Part shown: one piece after another, positions 7,296-18,633 of the stretch
Layout: every line of letters begins with the position of its first letter
Position numbering within the stretch: the first letter of the stretch is position 1
Source: a virus
IMG/VR virus record: IMGVR_UViG_3300025293_000055
Coordinates: 1 to 21,292 of that record
Length of the DNA stretch: 21,292 nucleotides
Strand: one strand, 5' to 3'
The notes under the pieces: model-generated
Told to the model about the DNA's origin: nothing
Databases searched by the model: none
Seen by the model: only the letters and a program-made list of their open reading frames with translations
Program-made: the position numbers and the translations under genes

Positions 7296-7682
7296 CTAGA
7301 GTGAGATATGTTGAGTTTCTGGAGAGGTTGCTTTGGGCGGAGCGCTTTTTTTGGGAAGTTTGGGGGGCTTCAAAGTTTCCCAATCCGAACCATTCGATAT
7401 CATGCAACTCATCGTTTTGTTTGTATCGTACCCGACAATTGTCCATGTACCCGTTTCCTGATTTGAGAGGACGTAGAATAAGCCTTCCCCGCCGTCAACG
7501 ATGCCTCGCCCTACGGGCTGCTCACCGTGTGTTTTAGTAAGCTCGTCGATTAAAGATTCGGCAGTTTGTGGAAAACACGCCATTTTTAGTGTCCCAACAA
7601 CCAAATCTGCTGCTTTAGTCGGCCACGCGAATGTCAACGTGGCCGTTATTAAAAAAGCGAAAAAATACTTTTCATACCGCAC
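7296..7682 (-). CDS. Secreted or periplasmic conserved phage protein
   Basis: A 128-aa protein with a clear Sec signal peptide: MRYEKYFFAFLITATLTFAW and likely cleavage after TKA (residue 24). The mature part has two Cys (CFPQTAESLIDELTKTHGE, and MSCMISNGSDW) that could form a disulphide, and a TGTWTIVGYD strand. It ends in a Pro/Lys-rich tail (PPKLPKKSAPPKA). I recall alphaproteobacterial and phage proteins with the same Cys...GTWT...C...G-x-x-W pattern but no known function. The start is supported by GGAG six bases before ATG 7682. A secreted protein in a late operon may act in the periplasm during lysis or entry, or protect the infected cell. Confidence 0.65.
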   Translation of the reverse strand: MRYEKYFFAFLITATLTFAWPTKAADLVVGTLKMACFPQTAESLIDELTKTHGEQPVGRGIVDGGEGLFYVLSNQETGTWTIVGYDTNKTMSCMISNGSDWETLKPPKLPKKSAPPKATSPETQHISL

Positions 7683-7702: not shown

Positions 7703-7867
7703 TTAATACTTTTTCTTTGAAGATTTTTTCTGAACGCCGAGTCGCGAAGTAATACGCTTAACGTCTTGGTCTGTCATAACCCCACCACCCACAACTTTGT
7801 TACGCATCGCGCCATAAAGATGGGTTAGTGAACTCTTGGTTTTGTTATTTTTGGGTTTGTGTTTCAT
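7703..7867 (-). CDS. 54-aa protein sharing a segment with the 622-aa virion protein
   Basis: A short gene with a good ribosome site (AGGA six bases before ATG 7867), eight bases after the stop of the 979-aa gene. The product is basic at both ends (MKHKPKNNKTKSS and KKSSKKKY). Its middle, KVVGGGVMTDQDVKRITSRL, is nearly the same as EVVGGGVLTEQDAERVISRL in the 622-aa virion protein about 3.4 kb away, and the DNA is about 84% identical over 63 bases. It may be a detached copy of that segment with its own function, such as binding the same partner. I know no family for it. Confidence 0.65.
   Translation of the reverse strand: MKHKPKNNKTKSSLTHLYGAMRNKVVGGGVMTDQDVKRITSRLGVQKKSSKKKY
7736..7803. repeat. 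Duplicated segment, copy 1 (partner at 11136-11203)
   Basis: Bases 7741-7803 and 11141-11203 are in the same orientation and about 84% identical by eye, starting with GCCGAGTCGCGAA and including CCACCACCCACAACTT. The differences are mainly at third codon positions, so both copies appear to be kept as protein sequence. Confidence 0.8.
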
Positions 7868-7875
7868 TGGATTTC

Positions 7876-10815
7876 CTAAAATTGATAAGGTTGAGGATAC
7901 GATTGCATATGTTGGGAAGCGCGCTCTGAGGCAGACTGTAAAACGTCATCAAATTCGCCGATTTGTTCCGGCGCAACGGACAGGGCGGTTTTCATCGAAG
8001 CGTACCGCATAAGGCTGATTTCTTGTGCTGCTGTTAATTTCTTTAACGCGTCCACACGTAATAGCCTAGCGGCAAATTCCGGTTCTTTTAATGCCTGCTG
8101 CAATATATTAAATGACTGCTCGGCGTCCATGCTAAGAAGACGTTGGACTAGCCCCGAAGCCGATTTCCGCATAACATTAGCCCACATTAACCCATGTGCC
8201 CCAGGATTCAATCGCGCTCCCAAAATTATCCCTAGGGTGCCTCCTATCGTAGACAATTTTTGTACCGTGTCTGATCCCCCTGCCTCTGCGATTCCCAGAC
8301 TTTGCCTCATATTTACAGTTAAACCGGCTTCGACCTGCTCAAGAATAGCTACTCCTCCAGCGCCGTAGATTTTTTTGAGAGCGGCCTTTTTATTTTTGAG
8401 AAGCGTCCTTAGTGGGCGGGCGATAACTTTAGGGTCTCCCACTACGTCACGCGCAGCATTAACATACGGGGCAACCGTATCCAGTATAACCTCCGTCATT
8501 GCTGACCTGACACCTCGAACAGCGTTTCCGGTGGGGTCTTTTTTTGCTTTTGCCATTATTTTAGCGGCTGCGGAAACTGGAGATTTTGAAGTTAGAACGG
8601 ACCTTGCTTGAGCCGAAGGCTCTCCATTAATATATTTTGCCGCAGTTGATTGCACCTTAATATTCGTAATTCGCGTCCGTAGCCCCTTTTGCGCCGCTTC
8701 TGCTAATTCCCGGCCGGTTGCAGCGTTTGACATCTGTTCCTTGAGTTCAGGAAATTCGTCCAGCACCCTGCTGTGCTTTTCTACGAACCGCAACCCAGCT
8801 TTTGGAAGAAATGTTCCGCGATGGTCTGTAATCGACGCCGCGTATAAAGCCTTTAGAAATTCCTGAACAGCATCGTCAATTTCAGCGGCCCCCTCATCCC
8901 CTGCGGCCTTACGCATTGCCTGAAGGCCTAAAACCCCAAAAGTTGGGTCTTCAATCATGTTGTAAAGGGTTCTTTCTGGAGATATGATAAAATCACGCGA
9001 GGTGTCGTATTCAAACAGCTTTCCTATCGGACCCCTGGTGAAAGTGTCATTTAGTGACTTGCTGAAATCCCGCGCTTTTGTGACAGCGCCCAAAATTGGA
9101 TCGTCATCTATTTTTTCCCAGCGAGCGGCTTTGCCCGTGCCCACCCTTCTGACGGGCACGATGTCATTAAACAGCGGATCTAAAAGTTCTGTACGCAAAA
9201 TCCTGGCGCGATTAAATCTGCCCGCCGCTCTTTCCGCCGCGATAGCATTCAAAACCCTGCTGCGAAGAGCAAGAATCTCCCCTATAGACTCCACATCATC
9301 CCACATGGGCTTGGCTGTTTTTACCGGAACGCCTAATTCATTTATCGCGCCCTCTGGGAGATCTGGTTTTCGACTAAGTTCGTAAAAGATCGGGCTGTAC
9401 TCATTTGAACTTTCAGCCTTAAACTTCGACTCTATGGCCAGTCTTGCCCGCCCAATTATTGCGGAAACGTCATAATTTTGATAACCTATGGCGGTCCATT
9501 CCGTTTTTTCTCTTTCTCGGGCGTCGTCAAGTGCACTTTTTAATCGGCCCCTGGCGATTTGGCTGGCCTCAAAGTCAGTGTACTTTGCGCCCAGTTTGTT
9601 GATTTCTGTCCTTGAAGCGTTGATTGCCTCACCCACCCTGGCCTCAACAAATTGAACTGCCCGGTTTATTCTGTCTCCAAAAAACTTAACGGAAAATTCA
9701 GAGGTGTCGTCTCCCGGAGCTAATGTTTTAATTGCCGAAAGCAACGATTGGTTTGACCGCGTAAGGTAATCCTGACTGCGTGCAACCAATTTCGGGTCTG
9801 CCGCGTCTACCCCGCGCTCCAGGGCTATAAGGCCTGGGTCATTGTATGCCCGCCCGGTGGACGGCTCCCCATACTGAGGTAAATCTACGTCTCCCCACTC
9901 CATGCGTTCAATTGTTGTGGGGTCTGCGGCGGCACGAAAAATATCTGGTATACGTCGTTCCTGCGCCGCCCGGCTAATCCCAATATCGTTGGCTAAACCT
10001 CGGAATGCTTTGCTAGTTAAAGCTAATGTGCTGGCTGGCGCAAGCCCGCCCACCAACTCGCCATAAGGGCGTGCCCCTTCGCCAAATGACGAAAATAATT
10101 CACCAGTTGCCCCGATAGGCCAAGCTATGCCCAACTCCATTAAAGCGGTACGGTACGGGTGGCTCCTAACAGCGTTAAGCATTGGCTCAAAAAATCTTCG
10201 CTTAGTCTGTAGAGCAATATGTTGAGCCACAGGGGTCAATTTAGCAAAACCACCCAGTATGCCAAACCCTACCAGAGCTTCCCCCGTAACGCGGCCTATG
10301 GACCCCATATAACCAGAATCCGGGGTGGCCCCTACGCCAGTCCACTCGAAAAGACGTTTTAAACTTTCGCTTCCCCCAAGGGGTTCGTCATGGCCAAGAA
10401 TAATATTCGCTAGATCAACAGGTGCACCAATGAGATGAGATATACCAAGATTAACACCTTCGCCAAAATTCTCAACGATACTTTTCCTGTTCCATACGCT
10501 CTGGCCGAATTGTTCAAATGGGTTTGGCCCTGGTTCGGGTGGATCAAATTGTTCAAAGGGGTTTTTCCCCTCTGCGGTTACGGCCGTGTCAGCAGGTTTC
10601 GCATCATACTCGGAAAAGAACCGGACCTTTATCCTCTCATCAGGCTCCACATCATAAGGCTCCACATCATATGAGGGATCTGGAACAGTGGGTGGATTAA
10701 ATTGTTCAAAGGGGTTTGCGCCCTCTAAGGCCGTGTCGGCCTCAACCCAAGTTTCATCATCTCGTTCATCATACGAGACTTCATCAATAAAAGGGGTATC
10801 TCCCATCATTTTCAC
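7876..10815 (-). CDS. Large internal virion / DNA-ejection-type protein with NPFEQF repeats
   Basis: A 979-aa protein, the largest in the window. The acidic N-terminus carries three NPFEQF motifs (residues 34-39, 85-90, 98-103) and a YDVEP pair (about 49-58). A block IGAPVDLANIIL with GGSESLKRLFEWTG (about 129-160) recurs, as I recall, in large virion proteins of alphaproteobacterial phages. Gly/Ala-rich stretches near 180-270 could contact membranes, and the rest is mostly helical. It is third in line after the 187-aa and 622-aa proteins, like T7 gp16 after gp14 and gp15, which form the ejection channel. I see no transglycosylase motif at the N-terminus. The GTG start at 10815 overlaps the upstream stop as GTGA; ATG 10809 or 10806 is also possible. 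Confidence 0.7.
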   Translation of the reverse strand: MKMMGDTPFIDEVSYDERDDETWVEADTALEGANPFEQFNPPTVPDPSYDVEPYDVEPDERIKVRFFSEYDAKPADTAVTAEGKNPFEQFDPPEPGPNPFEQFGQSVWNRKSIVENFGEGVNLGISHLIGAPVDLANIILGHDEPLGGSESLKRLFEWTGVGATPDSGYMGSIGRVTGEALVGFGILGGFAKLTPVAQHIALQTKRRFFEPMLNAVRSHPYRTALMELGIAWPIGATGELFSSFGEGARPYGELVGGLAPASTLALTSKAFRGLANDIGISRAAQERRIPDIFRAAADPTTIERMEWGDVDLPQYGEPSTGRAYNDPGLIALERGVDAADPKLVARSQDYLTRSNQSLLSAIKTLAPGDDTSEFSVKFFGDRINRAVQFVEARVGEAINASRTEINKLGAKYTDFEASQIARGRLKSALDDAREREKTEWTAIGYQNYDVSAIIGRARLAIESKFKAESSNEYSPIFYELSRKPDLPEGAINELGVPVKTAKPMWDDVESIGEILALRSRVLNAIAAERAAGRFNRARILRTELLDPLFNDIVPVRRVGTGKAARWEKIDDDPILGAVTKARDFSKSLNDTFTRGPIGKLFEYDTSRDFIISPERTLYNMIEDPTFGVLGLQAMRKAAGDEGAAEIDDAVQEFLKALYAASITDHRGTFLPKAGLRFVEKHSRVLDEFPELKEQMSNAATGRELAEAAQKGLRTRITNIKVQSTAAKYINGEPSAQARSVLTSKSPVSAAAKIMAKAKKDPTGNAVRGVRSAMTEVILDTVAPYVNAARDVVGDPKVIARPLRTLLKNKKAALKKIYGAGGVAILEQVEAGLTVNMRQSLGIAEAGGSDTVQKLSTIGGTLGIILGARLNPGAHGLMWANVMRKSASGLVQRLLSMDAEQSFNILQQALKEPEFAARLLRVDALKKLTAAQEISLMRYASMKTALSVAPEQIGEFDDVLQSASERASQHMQSYPQPYQF
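10537..10717. repeat. Dispersed 28-bp repeats encoding NPFEQF
   Basis: GGGTGGAT(C/T)AAATTGTT continues into CAAAGGGGTTT at 10537-10564 and 10690-10717, with one mismatch in 28 bases. A third, diverged copy lies at about 10507-10527. They encode PNPFEQF-type motifs on the minus strand and so are coding repeats. Confidence 0.8.
10642..10671. repeat. Perfect 15-bp tandem repeat, two copies
   Basis: AGGCTCCACATCATA occurs twice in a row (10642-10656 and 10657-10671) and encodes the YDVEP YDVEP pair. Perfect identity suggests recent slippage duplication. Confidence 0.9.
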
Positions 10816-12680
10816 TTTAGGTATTGTTTTGCCGGGGTTGGGTTAGCTTTATTCCCATAATGTTCATTAAAATACGTTTCATACCGCTTTGGGTCTTCCA
10901 GTAATAGTTTAATGGCTTCTTCCGTAGGTGCGCGCGTTAATATGCCGCCAAAAAGGTCGTCGTAGTCAACTTTGATTGGGGCTCTTGGAACATAGTTAAA
11001 CTGACCGTATCCCTGAGAAACCTGCATATTCCAAGCCTTTCTGTCAACGTTGTTGTAGGTATCGACTTTTTGTTTCATTATTGATCGAATCGCGTCTGCC
11101 ACAACCTCTGGGCTTCGAAGAGCGCTAACATCGTTGCCGAGTCGCGAAATAACACGCTCAGCGTCTTGTTCTGTCAAAACTCCACCACCCACAACTTCCT
11201 TGCGGAATCTGCCGAGAAGCCCCTGAAGTCGGCCACTTTGAGTCATGTCAGTTAGTTGTTGACTTGTAAGTCTATTACCGAAAACTGTATTAAACTCTCC
11301 AACAAATTGGCTTGCTAAAAGTCTCCAGCCTTGGGAAGAGTCTTTGACCTTTTTCCAGTAGTCAACTAAAGCTGTAATTGATTGTTCATTAAAATTAATT
11401 CTTTCGTGGAGTTTTATAAACTGTTGTCCAGTGAGAGTGGAGCGAGCAAGCGCCGTTGGGGTTCTTCGTTGAGCGTTTATGGGGAGAGGGATCATTTGGC
11501 CGCCCCCAGATGGGCGAAGGTAAAATTCTCCTTGATTAAATATGCCCTCGCCCAAATACCGTCCGGCATTGTCAACATAAGGCCCCAATGGTCTCATGGA
11601 CCGCAGTTCCCCGGATTTTACGCGCCATTTGAATTTGGCTTGATCGTCCTCTCGCCTGAGTTTCCACTGATCGTCACTAATGTTAGCGCGGGTTTTACGC
11701 CACTCAAATACATTGCGTTCGTGTACTCGTTGTAAACGCCGTGCCTCATCCAGTTGATTTTGATTTTTTTCTTTTTGATTATAAGTTTTTACTTTTAAAT
11801 CGTGCGTTTTATTATATTGTGAAGCGTTTTGGGCTAGTTTTTTGTTAAATTGCTCTTCTTTAAGTTTTGCTTGATCCGTTTTGAATTTGAACAGGTTAGC
11901 TTTGTGGTCACGTTCAAGTCTGTCCACCTTTTCTTTATACTCTTGTTCGGTAAGGTACCTGGCATCTAGTTTGGCCGCTCTGATTTCCCGCCACTCATTA
12001 TCCAACTTTTCTTGTTTTGTTATCCGCGCTTCTCTTGTTTCTGCTAATTCGGCGGTTCTGTCTTGAGCAGCGTCAGCTGCAATATCTCGGCGAGCCCGAC
12101 GTTCAACATCTTCACTCCTTTTTTGTTTGTTAAAATCTAATATTTTTCTCTTATGTTCAAGTGTTTGTCGGCGGTATTCCGTGGTCGCCTTTTTAGACTC
12201 TCGTACTTCTTCACGGCGCAACCTGGCTTCTTCGTCAGCCGCTTTGTCCCTGCCTGCTTGGCGCTCAATCTCGTACGCCTTTAAAGCGTTAACCTTACGG
12301 CCGGCCTGGATTGCGTTTATGGCCTCCCCATACGTTTTCTTGCCGTCAAATGTAGACAGCAGTGCCCTGGTAATATCCCTCACTTCAGGGGCTTTGCGCG
12401 ATTGATCCAGCAGCAGACGAGTGACGCGGTTTTTTGCGGAGATAATAGAGTTCTGCAAGTCACCGGGTGGCACACCCGTTCGCTCAGTTACTACATTTCC
12501 GGCCTTGCGGCCTTCGATCATTTTCTTTACGTCGGGGCTTAACTCGATATCCCCAGAATATTGGGCTCGTCGGTAATCGAACTCGCTCCCCCCATAAAGC
12601 CTGCTGGGCAGATCTCGTCTTCCAGGTGTCCCAAGTAGTTGATCTATAGCAAGTCCTTCAAGAGAAGTATTTTGTACCAT
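10812..12680 (-). CDS. Internal virion protein with long coiled-coil middle
   Basis: A 622-aa protein. Residues 1-120 form a mixed N-terminal domain. About 120-365 is a very long charged helix rich in R, K, E, Q and D (for example DEEARLRREEVRESKKATTE). A C-terminal domain (about 400-622) begins at LTGQQFIKLHERINFNEQS and contains EVVGGGVLTEQDAERVISRL (about 492-514), the segment shared with the 54-aa gene. It lies between the 187-aa and 979-aa genes, the position of T7 gp15 in the ejection complex, and the long helix fits a periplasm-spanning tube component. Assignment is by position and architecture, not clear homology. It overlaps the upstream stop by one base (TAATG) and the next start by 4 bp. 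Confidence 0.65.
   Translation of the reverse strand: MVQNTSLEGLAIDQLLGTPGRRDLPSRLYGGSEFDYRRAQYSGDIELSPDVKKMIEGRKAGNVVTERTGVPPGDLQNSIISAKNRVTRLLLDQSRKAPEVRDITRALLSTFDGKKTYGEAINAIQAGRKVNALKAYEIERQAGRDKAADEEARLRREEVRESKKATTEYRRQTLEHKRKILDFNKQKRSEDVERRARRDIAADAAQDRTAELAETREARITKQEKLDNEWREIRAAKLDARYLTEQEYKEKVDRLERDHKANLFKFKTDQAKLKEEQFNKKLAQNASQYNKTHDLKVKTYNQKEKNQNQLDEARRLQRVHERNVFEWRKTRANISDDQWKLRREDDQAKFKWRVKSGELRSMRPLGPYVDNAGRYLGEGIFNQGEFYLRPSGGGQMIPLPINAQRRTPTALARSTLTGQQFIKLHERINFNEQSITALVDYWKKVKDSSQGWRLLASQFVGEFNTVFGNRLTSQQLTDMTQSGRLQGLLGRFRKEVVGGGVLTEQDAERVISRLGNDVSALRSPEVVADAIRSIMKQKVDTYNNVDRKAWNMQVSQGYGQFNYVPRAPIKVDYDDLFGGILTRAPTEEAIKLLLEDPKRYETYFNEHYGNKANPTPAKQYLK
11136..11203. repeat. 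Duplicated segment, copy 2 (partner at 7736-7803)
   Basis: This is the copy inside the 622-aa gene, about residues 492-514. See copy 1 for the alignment. Confidence 0.8.
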
Positions 12681-13243
12681 TATGCACTAATCCGAGTGTT
12701 GGCCGGCTGAGGCCTGTTAGTGCGGATCATCTCACGGATGAAGTCATTAAGGCCTGGGTTGCCGGCGCGTGGGTCCGCTAATCGTCTAATGTAATCGAGT
12801 GACGCTAGACCAAGGTTGCCCACTTGTTGGCGAGAAGCTGTTGCCGCATTAAGAAAATTGGACGCCGCAGGTGGCTGTAGCCCAGCGGCCGCTGCATATC
12901 TTTGGCGCAGGACGTCACGCGCGTTGTTGCCGGCGACGGCTGATGCGCCCATCAACCGCTCATCCCATCGCGGGTCGCGCTCATTCCTAAATCCCTGGCG
13001 GTAAGACCTCTGGCCTCGAAGCGCAGCCTCAGTGATGGCTCTGGCGAATTCGCCTTTTCGAAGGCTCTCCTCTTTTTCGACTTCGCTGGCGGGCGGCGTA
13101 ATAGATTTGCCAACCAATGTACGGAAGTAGTTCAGTCTGTCGTCTTGGTCTGTACGCGCGCGGTCTAGTTCTCTTCGATTCTCCAGCACATTCCATAAGC
13201 TCAGCCCAAGTCCCCCAGCGCCTAAAATAGCATCCAAAACCAT
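12680..13243 (-). CDS. Small internal-virion-type protein (T7 gp14 position)
   Basis: A 187-aa helical protein. The N-terminus MVLDAILGAGGLGLSLWNVL is hydrophobic and Gly-rich. A charged helix follows (ENRRELDRARTDQDDRL), then a long Arg/Ala/Asn-rich region (RDVLRQRYAAAAGLQPPAA, and ASRQQVGNLGLASLDYIRRL). It is the first of three consecutive genes that match the order and rising size of T7 gp14, gp15 and gp16; gp14 forms the outer-membrane end of the ejection channel and also has a hydrophobic, Ala-rich sequence. I see no direct similarity to T7 gp14, so this is a positional assignment. Its start directly follows the nozzle stop (TAGATG). Confidence 0.6.
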   Translation of the reverse strand: MVLDAILGAGGLGLSLWNVLENRRELDRARTDQDDRLNYFRTLVGKSITPPASEVEKEESLRKGEFARAITEAALRGQRSYRQGFRNERDPRWDERLMGASAVAGNNARDVLRQRYAAAAGLQPPAASNFLNAATASRQQVGNLGLASLDYIRRLADPRAGNPGLNDFIREMIRTNRPQPANTRISA

Positions 13244-16644: not shown

Positions 16645-18633
16645 TTACCCGCAGTGTAGGATGCACAAAACTCTTGGAACCCCGTCCGGGTCATTCGTAT
16701 GCGGCGCAGCTAGTGCCTGTGCCACTGAGTTCGTGTCTTTTGTATCACCCGTGGAATACAGCGTTCCATCACCGTTGCTTGAGAGCCAATCGCCTTTTGA
16801 GCAATCACCAGTGATAAGTGCGCCGTATTCACCGCTTAAACCGACGCCCCAAACAATCTGGTTTCCACTGTCTGCTTGTTGTCCTGCGTAGATTCCATAT
16901 GACATTTCGTCTTTTGTATCTGAAACCTTAATTCTTAAAAGACGTTTGTTATTATACTTTTCTATGACATGTTTCTCACGAACCGCTGGGGAAACAACCT
17001 CTGTATCCCAGACTGGCTGACTATATGTTGCTTGTTCACCATCAACCATTTTTGGTGAACCGTCTTCATTAAACAGTAACACGTCCTCAAAGACATCTAC
17101 TTTGATTGCCACCTCGACAACTTTTTCGCATAGCTTTCCGTCAATTTCTTCAACTATCACCTTCTCTTTTGTCGAATCAACTGTTCTCTGCTTTTTCTTG
17201 GTTTTGGCCTCAATGTCAACAAACCACTCATCACCAAGATCCTTATCATCTACGCGCTTTTCACCGACACCAATGAACTCACCAGTGTCATTGTTGTAAA
17301 TACGCTCAACGAGCCATTCACAGTATTCATCAGTTGACTTTACAATAGTGCCGATTTTTGGGTTTTCTTCAGGAGCGTCAGTTAAAGACCACTGAGAGGG
17401 GTGGGCACCAACAAACGCGGTCAGCGATACGGTAGTTCCACTTACAGATATATCGCCCTCTTCGCTAGTAGCTTGATGGAAAGAAATCAACTTCCCGTCG
17501 TTTGTCAGGCGGTTTAACTGAAGGGGTTCAGAGCCTGCGCGCGTATGCATCGCAGTGCCCGCAGCCTGCAACTCGTGCCCCGCTGTGGCCAATGCGCTGC
17601 TGGCCTTACCAACGAAAAAATGACCGGCATTATTGAGCGCAGCCATGATAGACGTGCCGTTGGCATAAAACCCGATTAGGTTGTCTGCGTGGTCCCCCCT
17701 GATCGACATTACGTCGTTGTCATCCGGGTCTCCAAAAAATATGCCACCTTCCTGATCTGTAGGAGTGAGGATTGATATTCCACAACCAGCACTGTTCTCA
17801 AGGACGAGTTCATCACCAGTTGAGCTTGCTGTGACGCTCCCTGCCGTTGCGCTATGCACATGCAGTTGACCGTCGCCGTCTAAGTTGCTCCCAACAACAA
17901 GAGTCCCAGGCATTTCTACCCGCGTCGTTCCTGTGGGGATTTCAATTACATCTGCATCGGCATCGTTTTTTATTGTAACATCGTTTGTCGAGCCTTGGCC
18001 GGTGACGATAATTCCCTCAGCGGCAGTGTAACCAATTGCAGCGTTATCACTAGCTGCCGTATCGCCATCAGCGTTCAACGTCGCTGCTGTCAGGTCTCCG
18101 ACAACATCAACATTTGTCGTACCAGTTGCAATTGTTATAACAGCGGCGTCAGCATCGTTTTTTACTGTCACGTCTGACGTGCTTCCTTGACCAGTAAGGA
18201 TGAGTCCTTCCGCAGCCGTATATCCCATTGCAGCATTATCACTAGCTGCTGTATCGCCGTCAGCGTTAACGGTCGATGCCGTAACATCACCAACGATGTC
18301 TACGTTTGTCGTACCAGTTGCAATGGTTATAACAGACGCATCAGCATCATTTTTTATTGTTATATCCGAAGTGCTTCCTTGACCCGTTAGAATAAGTCCT
18401 TCAGCAGCCGTATATCCCATTGCCGCGTTATCACTAGCAGCAGTATCGCTAGTCGCATTGACAGTGCCACCGCTAATATCGCTGGTCGTCGTGATCGCAA
18501 CTGGAACGCCGTCGAAAAAATTAGTGAGTGTGATTTTCTTTGTCGCTGACGCGCTGTCATCGACAATAGCCAGCAGATCTGCCGCCGCCTGGGTTGAGAG
18601 AGCGGAGAGGTCTGAAATTTTTACATTAGCCAT
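16645..18633 (-). CDS. Tail fibre / appendage protein with triplicated 64-aa repeat
   Basis: A 662-aa protein. The start MANVKISDLSALSTQAAADL is the particle-anchoring type seen in many phage fibres. Three tandem units of about 64 residues follow (57-248), each with DTAASDNAAMGYTAAEG, TGQGST, IKNDAD and a TGTTNV strand, as expected of a trimeric beta-helical shaft. The middle (about 250-410) looks like a receptor or shaft domain, and residues 430-560 are Lys/Glu/Val-rich. The C-terminal part (YGIYAGQQADSGNQIVWGVG, GALITGDCSKGDWLSSNGDG, and final VLCILHCG) matches a terminal domain common in phage fibres, possibly related to self-cleaving peptidase-G2-type chaperones. It would bind the host receptor. 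Its place between capsid and adaptor differs from T7. Confidence 0.8.
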   Translation of the reverse strand: MANVKISDLSALSTQAAADLLAIVDDSASATKKITLTNFFDGVPVAITTTSDISGGTVNATSDTAASDNAAMGYTAAEGLILTGQGSTSDITIKNDADASVITIATGTTNVDIVGDVTASTVNADGDTAASDNAAMGYTAAEGLILTGQGSTSDVTVKNDADAAVITIATGTTNVDVVGDLTAATLNADGDTAASDNAAIGYTAAEGIIVTGQGSTNDVTIKNDADADVIEIPTGTTRVEMPGTLVVGSNLDGDGQLHVHSATAGSVTASSTGDELVLENSAGCGISILTPTDQEGGIFFGDPDDNDVMSIRGDHADNLIGFYANGTSIMAALNNAGHFFVGKASSALATAGHELQAAGTAMHTRAGSEPLQLNRLTNDGKLISFHQATSEEGDISVSGTTVSLTAFVGAHPSQWSLTDAPEENPKIGTIVKSTDEYCEWLVERIYNNDTGEFIGVGEKRVDDKDLGDEWFVDIEAKTKKKQRTVDSTKEKVIVEEIDGKLCEKVVEVAIKVDVFEDVLLFNEDGSPKMVDGEQATYSQPVWDTEVVSPAVREKHVIEKYNNKRLLRIKVSDTKDEMSYGIYAGQQADSGNQIVWGVGLSGEYGALITGDCSKGDWLSSNGDGTLYSTGDTKDTNSVAQALAAPHTNDPDGVPRVLCILHCG
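17893..18465. repeat. Three tandem ~192-bp coding repeats in the fibre gene
   Basis: The units span about 18465-18274, 18273-18082 and 18081-17893, each coding for about 64 residues. Protein identity is high between units 1 and 2, while many third codon positions differ. Unit 3 has drifted at its end (TGTTRVEMPG). This is an intragenic duplication of shaft repeats. Confidence 0.85.

Follow-up and report, generated by a model that had tools for sequence, protein, structure and literature searches.

A short gene of an uncultivated virus, p54, carries a real, recent and lineage-specific copy of a fragment of a nearby late gene, p622. The DNA analysed (the window), 21,292 bases long, is a single record of an uncultivated virus, in which both genes lie on the minus strand, p54 at 7703..7867 and p622 at 10812..12680. 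p54 has the position, size and charge of a small basic protein encoded by relatives, together with a module that is otherwise found in much longer proteins. We tentatively propose that it is a lineage-specific replacement for that small basic late protein, with a module of an ejection-type protein at its centre, and that it probably gives rise to a putative virion-associated product.

Along the minus strand, the window encodes a capsid protein, tail-region proteins (including those of 229 and 684 aa), three proteins of 187, 622 and 979 aa, p54 and a 128-aa protein. Compared with podovirus capsids, that of the window gives 44.6% for MW202785, 41.3% for Alcaligenes phage vB_Af_QDWS535, whose capsid is annotated as Mu gpT-like, and 39.0% for Pelagibacter phage HTVC023P. 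The order tail protein, short, medium and long protein is common to the window, MW202785 and the related contig L089, and it is found in contig L091 with two additional genes in between. By this gene order, p187 (12680..13243, minus strand), p622 and p979 (7876..10815, minus strand) are probably the first, second and third of a set of candidate ejection-type proteins, p622 being the owner of the module and p979 adjoining p54 upstream. In L091, the gene before that of the p622-type protein matches a DNA ejection protein (phrog_4287, E 1e-18); only this upstream neighbour, and not p622, matches a known ejection-protein family. As p622 has no family match of its own, with no good hit among PHROG, Pfam and PDB entries, its virion role is proposed from gene order. 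A fold search with a p622 fragment gave no PDB match at E 0.001 or better and one match in BFVD (A0A1B1INQ4, E 6.2e-14). p979 shows 28.6% over an 879-column match with contig L100, and no p979 relative was found beyond that already known contig. Two further repeats were observed in the window, namely three tandem 192-nt repeats inside the gene for a 662-aa protein (17924-18499) and, near the start of p979, a short repeat present three times and encoding NPFEQF (10498-10726).

The product of p54 has 54 aa, a net charge of +13 and a pI of 10.7. As the sequence-only reading had it, the gene directly follows that of the 979-aa protein: it starts 8 nt after the p979 stop (9 nt past the stop's last base) and fills the gap between p979 and the next downstream gene, p128 (7296..7682, minus strand; phrog_25396, function unknown). 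An AGGA that resembles a ribosome-binding site (7874..7877, minus strand) overlaps the p979 stop codon and is spaced by 6 nt from the ATG of p54. Outside the module, codon usage is unremarkable (-0.03 per codon), and of 174 stop-to-stop ORFs of 45-90 codons, 5% score as high as the complete gene or higher. We detected no RNA structure over p54 (z 0.35), no match above shuffles between its lysine-rich ends and the rest of the window, and no Pfam family at E up to 1. AlphaFold2, run with an alignment composed mostly of p622-type modules, predicted helices at residues 9-26 and 33-42 (mean pLDDT 67.3, pTM 0.36).

The segment shared with p622, described from the letters alone as about 63 bp at about 84%, is confirmed as a direct repeat (D2) of 69 nt with 59/69 nt identical (86%), located at 7736..7804 in p54 and at 11136..11204 in p622 (both minus strand). 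The two copies have the same orientation, lie 3.4 kb apart, and are in frame in both genes, p54 residues 22-44 aligning codon by codon with p622 residues 493-515. Chance is excluded, because the best ungapped 69-mer matches of 20 codon-shuffled versions of the gene to the window reach at most 35-39/69. When p54 was searched against the record of the window itself, p622 was recovered at E 1.1e-8, with 53% over residues 13-46.

As for the origin of the repeat, p54 and p622 share 59/69 nt with 15/23 aa identical, and 292 pairs of relatives' modules at the same 15/23 aa have a mean of 42.7 and a maximum of 51 identical nt out of 69. Since the DNA match is far closer than the protein identity predicts, the core must have been copied recently within the lineage. 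p54 is the derived copy and p622 the likely donor, because p622 keeps every invariant position of the module, whereas in p54 the E and the A are replaced by D and V. A single uniform duplication is at odds with the data, because the part upstream of the core seems to resemble the family in protein but does not match p622 in DNA. Over these 24 nt, only 9/24 are identical to p622, versus 59/69 in the core (Fisher 1.6e-5). The corresponding p54 stretch, LTHLYGAM, scores 4.7 bits against the family (p622's stretch, 23.7 bits), a level attained by 5/5670 8-mers of the window and 8/100000 shuffles. These observations would fit an older module that p622 has partly overwritten, or an upstream part that has changed fast.

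The differences between the copies had been described as largely synonymous, and the stand-alone copy as being under selection. Neither view is supported by our counts. Eight of the ten differences are non-synonymous and two synonymous, though M/L, D/E, V/A and I/V are conservative; the others include two K/E charge reversals, N/K and T/I. The dN/dS analysis suggested for the shared segment was run by the Nei-Gojobori method and looks neutral (dN 0.177, dS 0.118, dN/dS ~1.5), with at least 8/10 non-synonymous changes having a P of 0.48 at omega 1 and of 0.005 at omega 0.2; two invariant positions are altered as well. Purifying selection on the p54/p622 pair is unsupported, and ten changes are also too few for claiming positive selection. 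With positions sorted by hand, differences affect 2/14 family-conserved and 6/9 variable sites (P 0.023), though part of the changes could have occurred in p622 rather than in p54.

The repeat covers the core of a conserved helix-GGG-helix module of p622 (residues 484-515; 11136..11231, minus strand), delimited with the relatives' alignment and AlphaFold2. By family resemblance and AlphaFold2, the full module of p54, helix - GGGVMT - helix, spans residues 14-44 (7736..7828, minus strand). The model of p622 residues 350-622 (53 sequences) has a mean pLDDT of 81.5, about 65-80 in the module, and predicts a helix, a GGG turn and a helix. The notion of a piece of a virion protein present as a separate gene is supported, the piece being a coherent module, conserved across many phages, of a late and probably virion (ejection) protein. 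A profile made of 64 module segments, with p622 included and p54 left out, finds p54 at 49.6 bits (E 3.6e-13), and p54 has the GGGV-T-x-QD-x-R...LG core of the p622-type family. It departs from that family in standing alone rather than being embedded in a large ejection-type protein.

Across 62 distinct module copies, GGGV, T, E, D, A, R and the two outer G are invariant. p54 breaks two of these positions, E19 and A22 (62/62 distinct relatives' modules), with D and V instead. Although several invariant positions were fixed by the search patterns, D was permitted at E19 and V at A22, so the constancy of these two sites was not imposed by the searches. Contig L091 also encodes a 686-aa protein (L091:3967-6027) with module-like stretches, GSGVMSDQDVERL and GSGVMTDLDAQRV, and a stretch matching tail tape-measure families. 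As D and V occupy the E19 and A22 positions in its module-like stretches too, these residues need not signal decay in p54. The GG(x)LS/TxxE motifs of CRP-902, L056 and L091 were considered as module members; the profile scores none, none and two weakly, respectively, and these look-alikes are a lead rather than members. A regular expression for the motif gave 100 real versus 0-3 shuffled matches, an overestimate, since the motif itself had served to fetch most of the loci.

Apart from p54, the module was found in long ORFs. We fetched 140 module loci from viral contigs with alignments of both copies, without and with one relative (the best 80 of 128 confirmed matches in one search and the best 80 of 118 in the other, several overlapping on the same contigs). 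The module always lies within an ORF that measures 331-687 aa between stops, except for two ORFs truncated by contig edges (149 and 195 aa). A 701-aa ORF with additional weak module copies occurs in L091 and L173, which come from the same contig. Every module match in a further 49 records, a large part of which are genome fragments, is in an ORF of at least 367 aa, and the window control worked. Among more distant relatives, the module place reads like ARAIEPGGRLSNQDV..VL.ALG in 17/42 loci (E < 0.5, either profile), each of which has it in an ORF of 512-738 aa. No short uncut module ORF other than p54 was present in the 140 fetched loci, the 49 records or the 42 further relatives.

Relatives were reached only via alignments that included relatives, and viral contigs searched with p54, p622 or p979 alone gave none. 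In the phage collection, a direct search with p54 gave only four chance-level matches (E 4-9), and p622, p979 and the 435-aa p622-type protein of L091 found no relative. Bacterial genomes yielded 29 pattern matches for the module pair, none of which was confirmed, and 33 records searched by p54 and by p622 were empty in a run without a positive control. The search of relatives that had been called for thus retrieved no stand-alone relative of the 54-aa gene, and for this reason its conservation cannot be shown. Absence from relatives combined with a neutral pattern, the outcome named beforehand as speaking against a functional stand-alone gene, is what we obtained among the relatives examined. 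The literature searches brought up no description of the module or of the genomic slot discussed below, absence there being no proof.

The slot is the place behind the last ejection-type gene, which was taken to be the second large ORF beyond the tail protein. The 684-aa tail protein retrieved 42 relatives, L232 being the closest with 40% identity, and the slot was readable in 23 contexts (19 groups once contexts with a large ORF at least 90% identical were merged). A DUF6496 protein is present in 19/23 contexts and 15/19 groups. New relative to the sequence-only reading is that DUF6496 proteins, which resemble p54 in size and charge, are the normal occupants of this slot. In 16/19 cases the protein was read directly, with 53-55 aa, a net charge of +12 to +14 and a start between -3 and +14 nt relative to the preceding stop; in L238, L254 and L273 it lies inside a longer ORF with an internal start. 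One slot protein was assigned by a Pfam run (E 1.2e-9) and the others by a profile built from 12 of these proteins. The contexts without DUF6496 are L232, L233, L234 and L242, and in L232 the slot harbours neither DUF6496 nor p54 but another small basic ORF.

p54 has the slot position, length and charge of the DUF6496 relatives, features that are outside the Pfam definition, and it does not match the DUF6496 (PF20106) profile (local profile -0.7 bits, hhalign probability 0.6%). Homology of p54 or its module to DUF6496 had been suggested by GG and V aligning without gaps, and it was not found by HMM or hhalign. Because p54 is not DUF6496 by sequence, unrelated sequences of similar size and charge share the slot. 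A full-text literature search found no paper on DUF6496.

Other small genes occur at or near such positions. A 150-aa ORF (L056:255-704) combines a DUF6496 segment with two SGAxVTxxE motifs and connects the slot family to a motif resembling the p622 module. In L239, L248, L250, L256 and others, a second small basic family (49-74 aa) comes after DUF6496, ~160-175 nt after the last ejection-type gene, and often ends like AKVSMGAQKTNPARRNRSY. For the p622-module loci, 56 contexts were read at the position that follows the next large ORF, which by eye contains mostly other genes, often fibre-like; small basic genes were noted in 2/56, in L100 (89 aa) and L138 (58 aa). The L100 protein has a Pfam DUF5754 match below the curated cut-off (21.7 vs 27.4 bits) and a weak match to part of phrog_220, annotated as minor head protein and DNA pilot (E 1.1e-4). 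The 58-aa basic ORF of L138 (L138:7101-7277), with a net charge of +13, is of another sequence type, lies at the end of the large gene and has no Pfam or PHROG match.

The slot, size, charge, module and recent copying of p54 are observed. In the reading we prefer, its middle is a copy of the helix-GGG-helix module of p622, the last 23 codons of which were recently copied from p622 or overwritten by conversion, and its lysine-rich ends were drawn from elsewhere. The gene product would most likely be made late, together with the ejection proteins, and might take over the job of the usual slot protein. Its module might dock to whichever partner the p622 module binds, and its basic, lysine-rich tails might contact DNA in or near the virion. 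DNA binding by T7 gp15 and gp16 is covered in part of a review on ejection proteins (PMC8954989). The proposal is favoured by the recent copying and its direction, the mosaic history of the module, the slot with its usual DUF6496 occupant and the spaced AGGA, as well as by the L056 ORF that joins DUF6496 with look-alike motifs and by the weak phrog_220 match of the L100 slot protein. It is weakened by the lack of a stand-alone relative, the dN/dS of ~1.5, the unremarkable codon usage, the lack of homology between p54 and DUF6496, the L232 slot without both proteins and a virion role of p622 that is read from gene order. A bolder and, in our view, unlikely extension is that the slot is home to a small +13 DNA-handling virion protein of interchangeable sequence, and that phages refill it by joining lysine-rich ends to a helix-GGG-helix docking module of an ejection protein, the module serving as a portable virion address tag.

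The main, serious rival to a replacement gene, because no second genome with p54 was found and the substitution pattern looks neutral, is that p54 is a young non-functional passenger. A chance partial duplication would have made a short ORF after p979, perhaps translated, jobless and drifting. We find this somewhat doubtful, even though p54 is in one record only among those examined, eight of its ten differences are non-synonymous and two family-invariant positions are altered. A passenger accounts less readily for an ORF that fills the intergenic gap behind a spaced AGGA, that matches the usual slot protein in size, position and charge, and that has fewer differences at conserved than at variable sites, some of which might belong to the p622 branch. 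Alternatively, in line with the sequence-only reading, p54 might be a competitor or assembly regulator that mimics the p622 module, occupies its partner and limits or times the incorporation of p622. The module is nearly complete in p54 and is predicted, with moderate confidence, as the same two-helix hairpin. We nevertheless consider such a role improbable, as it leaves unexplained both the +13 charge and the sharing of the slot with module-less DUF6496 proteins, and its partner is putative only.

Two more possibilities concern the DNA itself. The direct, same-orientation copies 3.4 kb apart could act at the DNA level, in recombination or regulation, with a coding content that is only incidental. 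This seems very unlikely, since the match is codon-phased and stops where the protein module ends, and since the stretch upstream is family-like in protein and not in DNA; moreover, relatives' modules differ widely in DNA, the protein motif persisting with little DNA similarity, as seen for p622. An assembly artefact of the metagenomic contig might be invoked for a single uncultivated virus record with no second genome to confirm p54. We deem it hardly credible, given that the gene order resembles that of relatives, that the junctions overlap normally (the p979 start inside the p622 end and the AGGA over the p979 stop), and that the copies differ at 10/69 sites with unrelated flanks.

Should p54 indeed be a replacement for the slot protein, it would represent a new small phage gene caught in the act of being made from part of a probable virion protein, and placed in a position usually taken by a non-homologous protein that equals it in size and charge. 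What DUF6496 proteins do could then be tested via charge and docking rather than sequence. The case of p54 hints at how phages make new small genes.

Comparisons with other systems place p54 between several types of proteins. Its residues 14-44 match the p622-type modules of uncultivated phages (GGGVMTEQDA), but those are in long ORFs, and p54 alters two invariant positions. The 89-aa phrog_7595/DUF5754-like protein of L100 is, like p54, the product of a small basic gene, in this case after a p979 homologue; its sequence is unrelated to that of p54, and it starts 216 nt after the stop. p54 resembles DUF6496 (PF20106) proteins, which have a lysine-rich C-terminus, in slot, length and charge, whereas DUF6496 lacks the GGGVMTEQD core and has no homology to p54 or to the p622 module. 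Finally, although p622 has no sequence or solved-structure match to the ejection (pilot) proteins of P22 and T7, the late run of the window, with its small, medium and large proteins, resembles them in forming by gene order a candidate ejection set.
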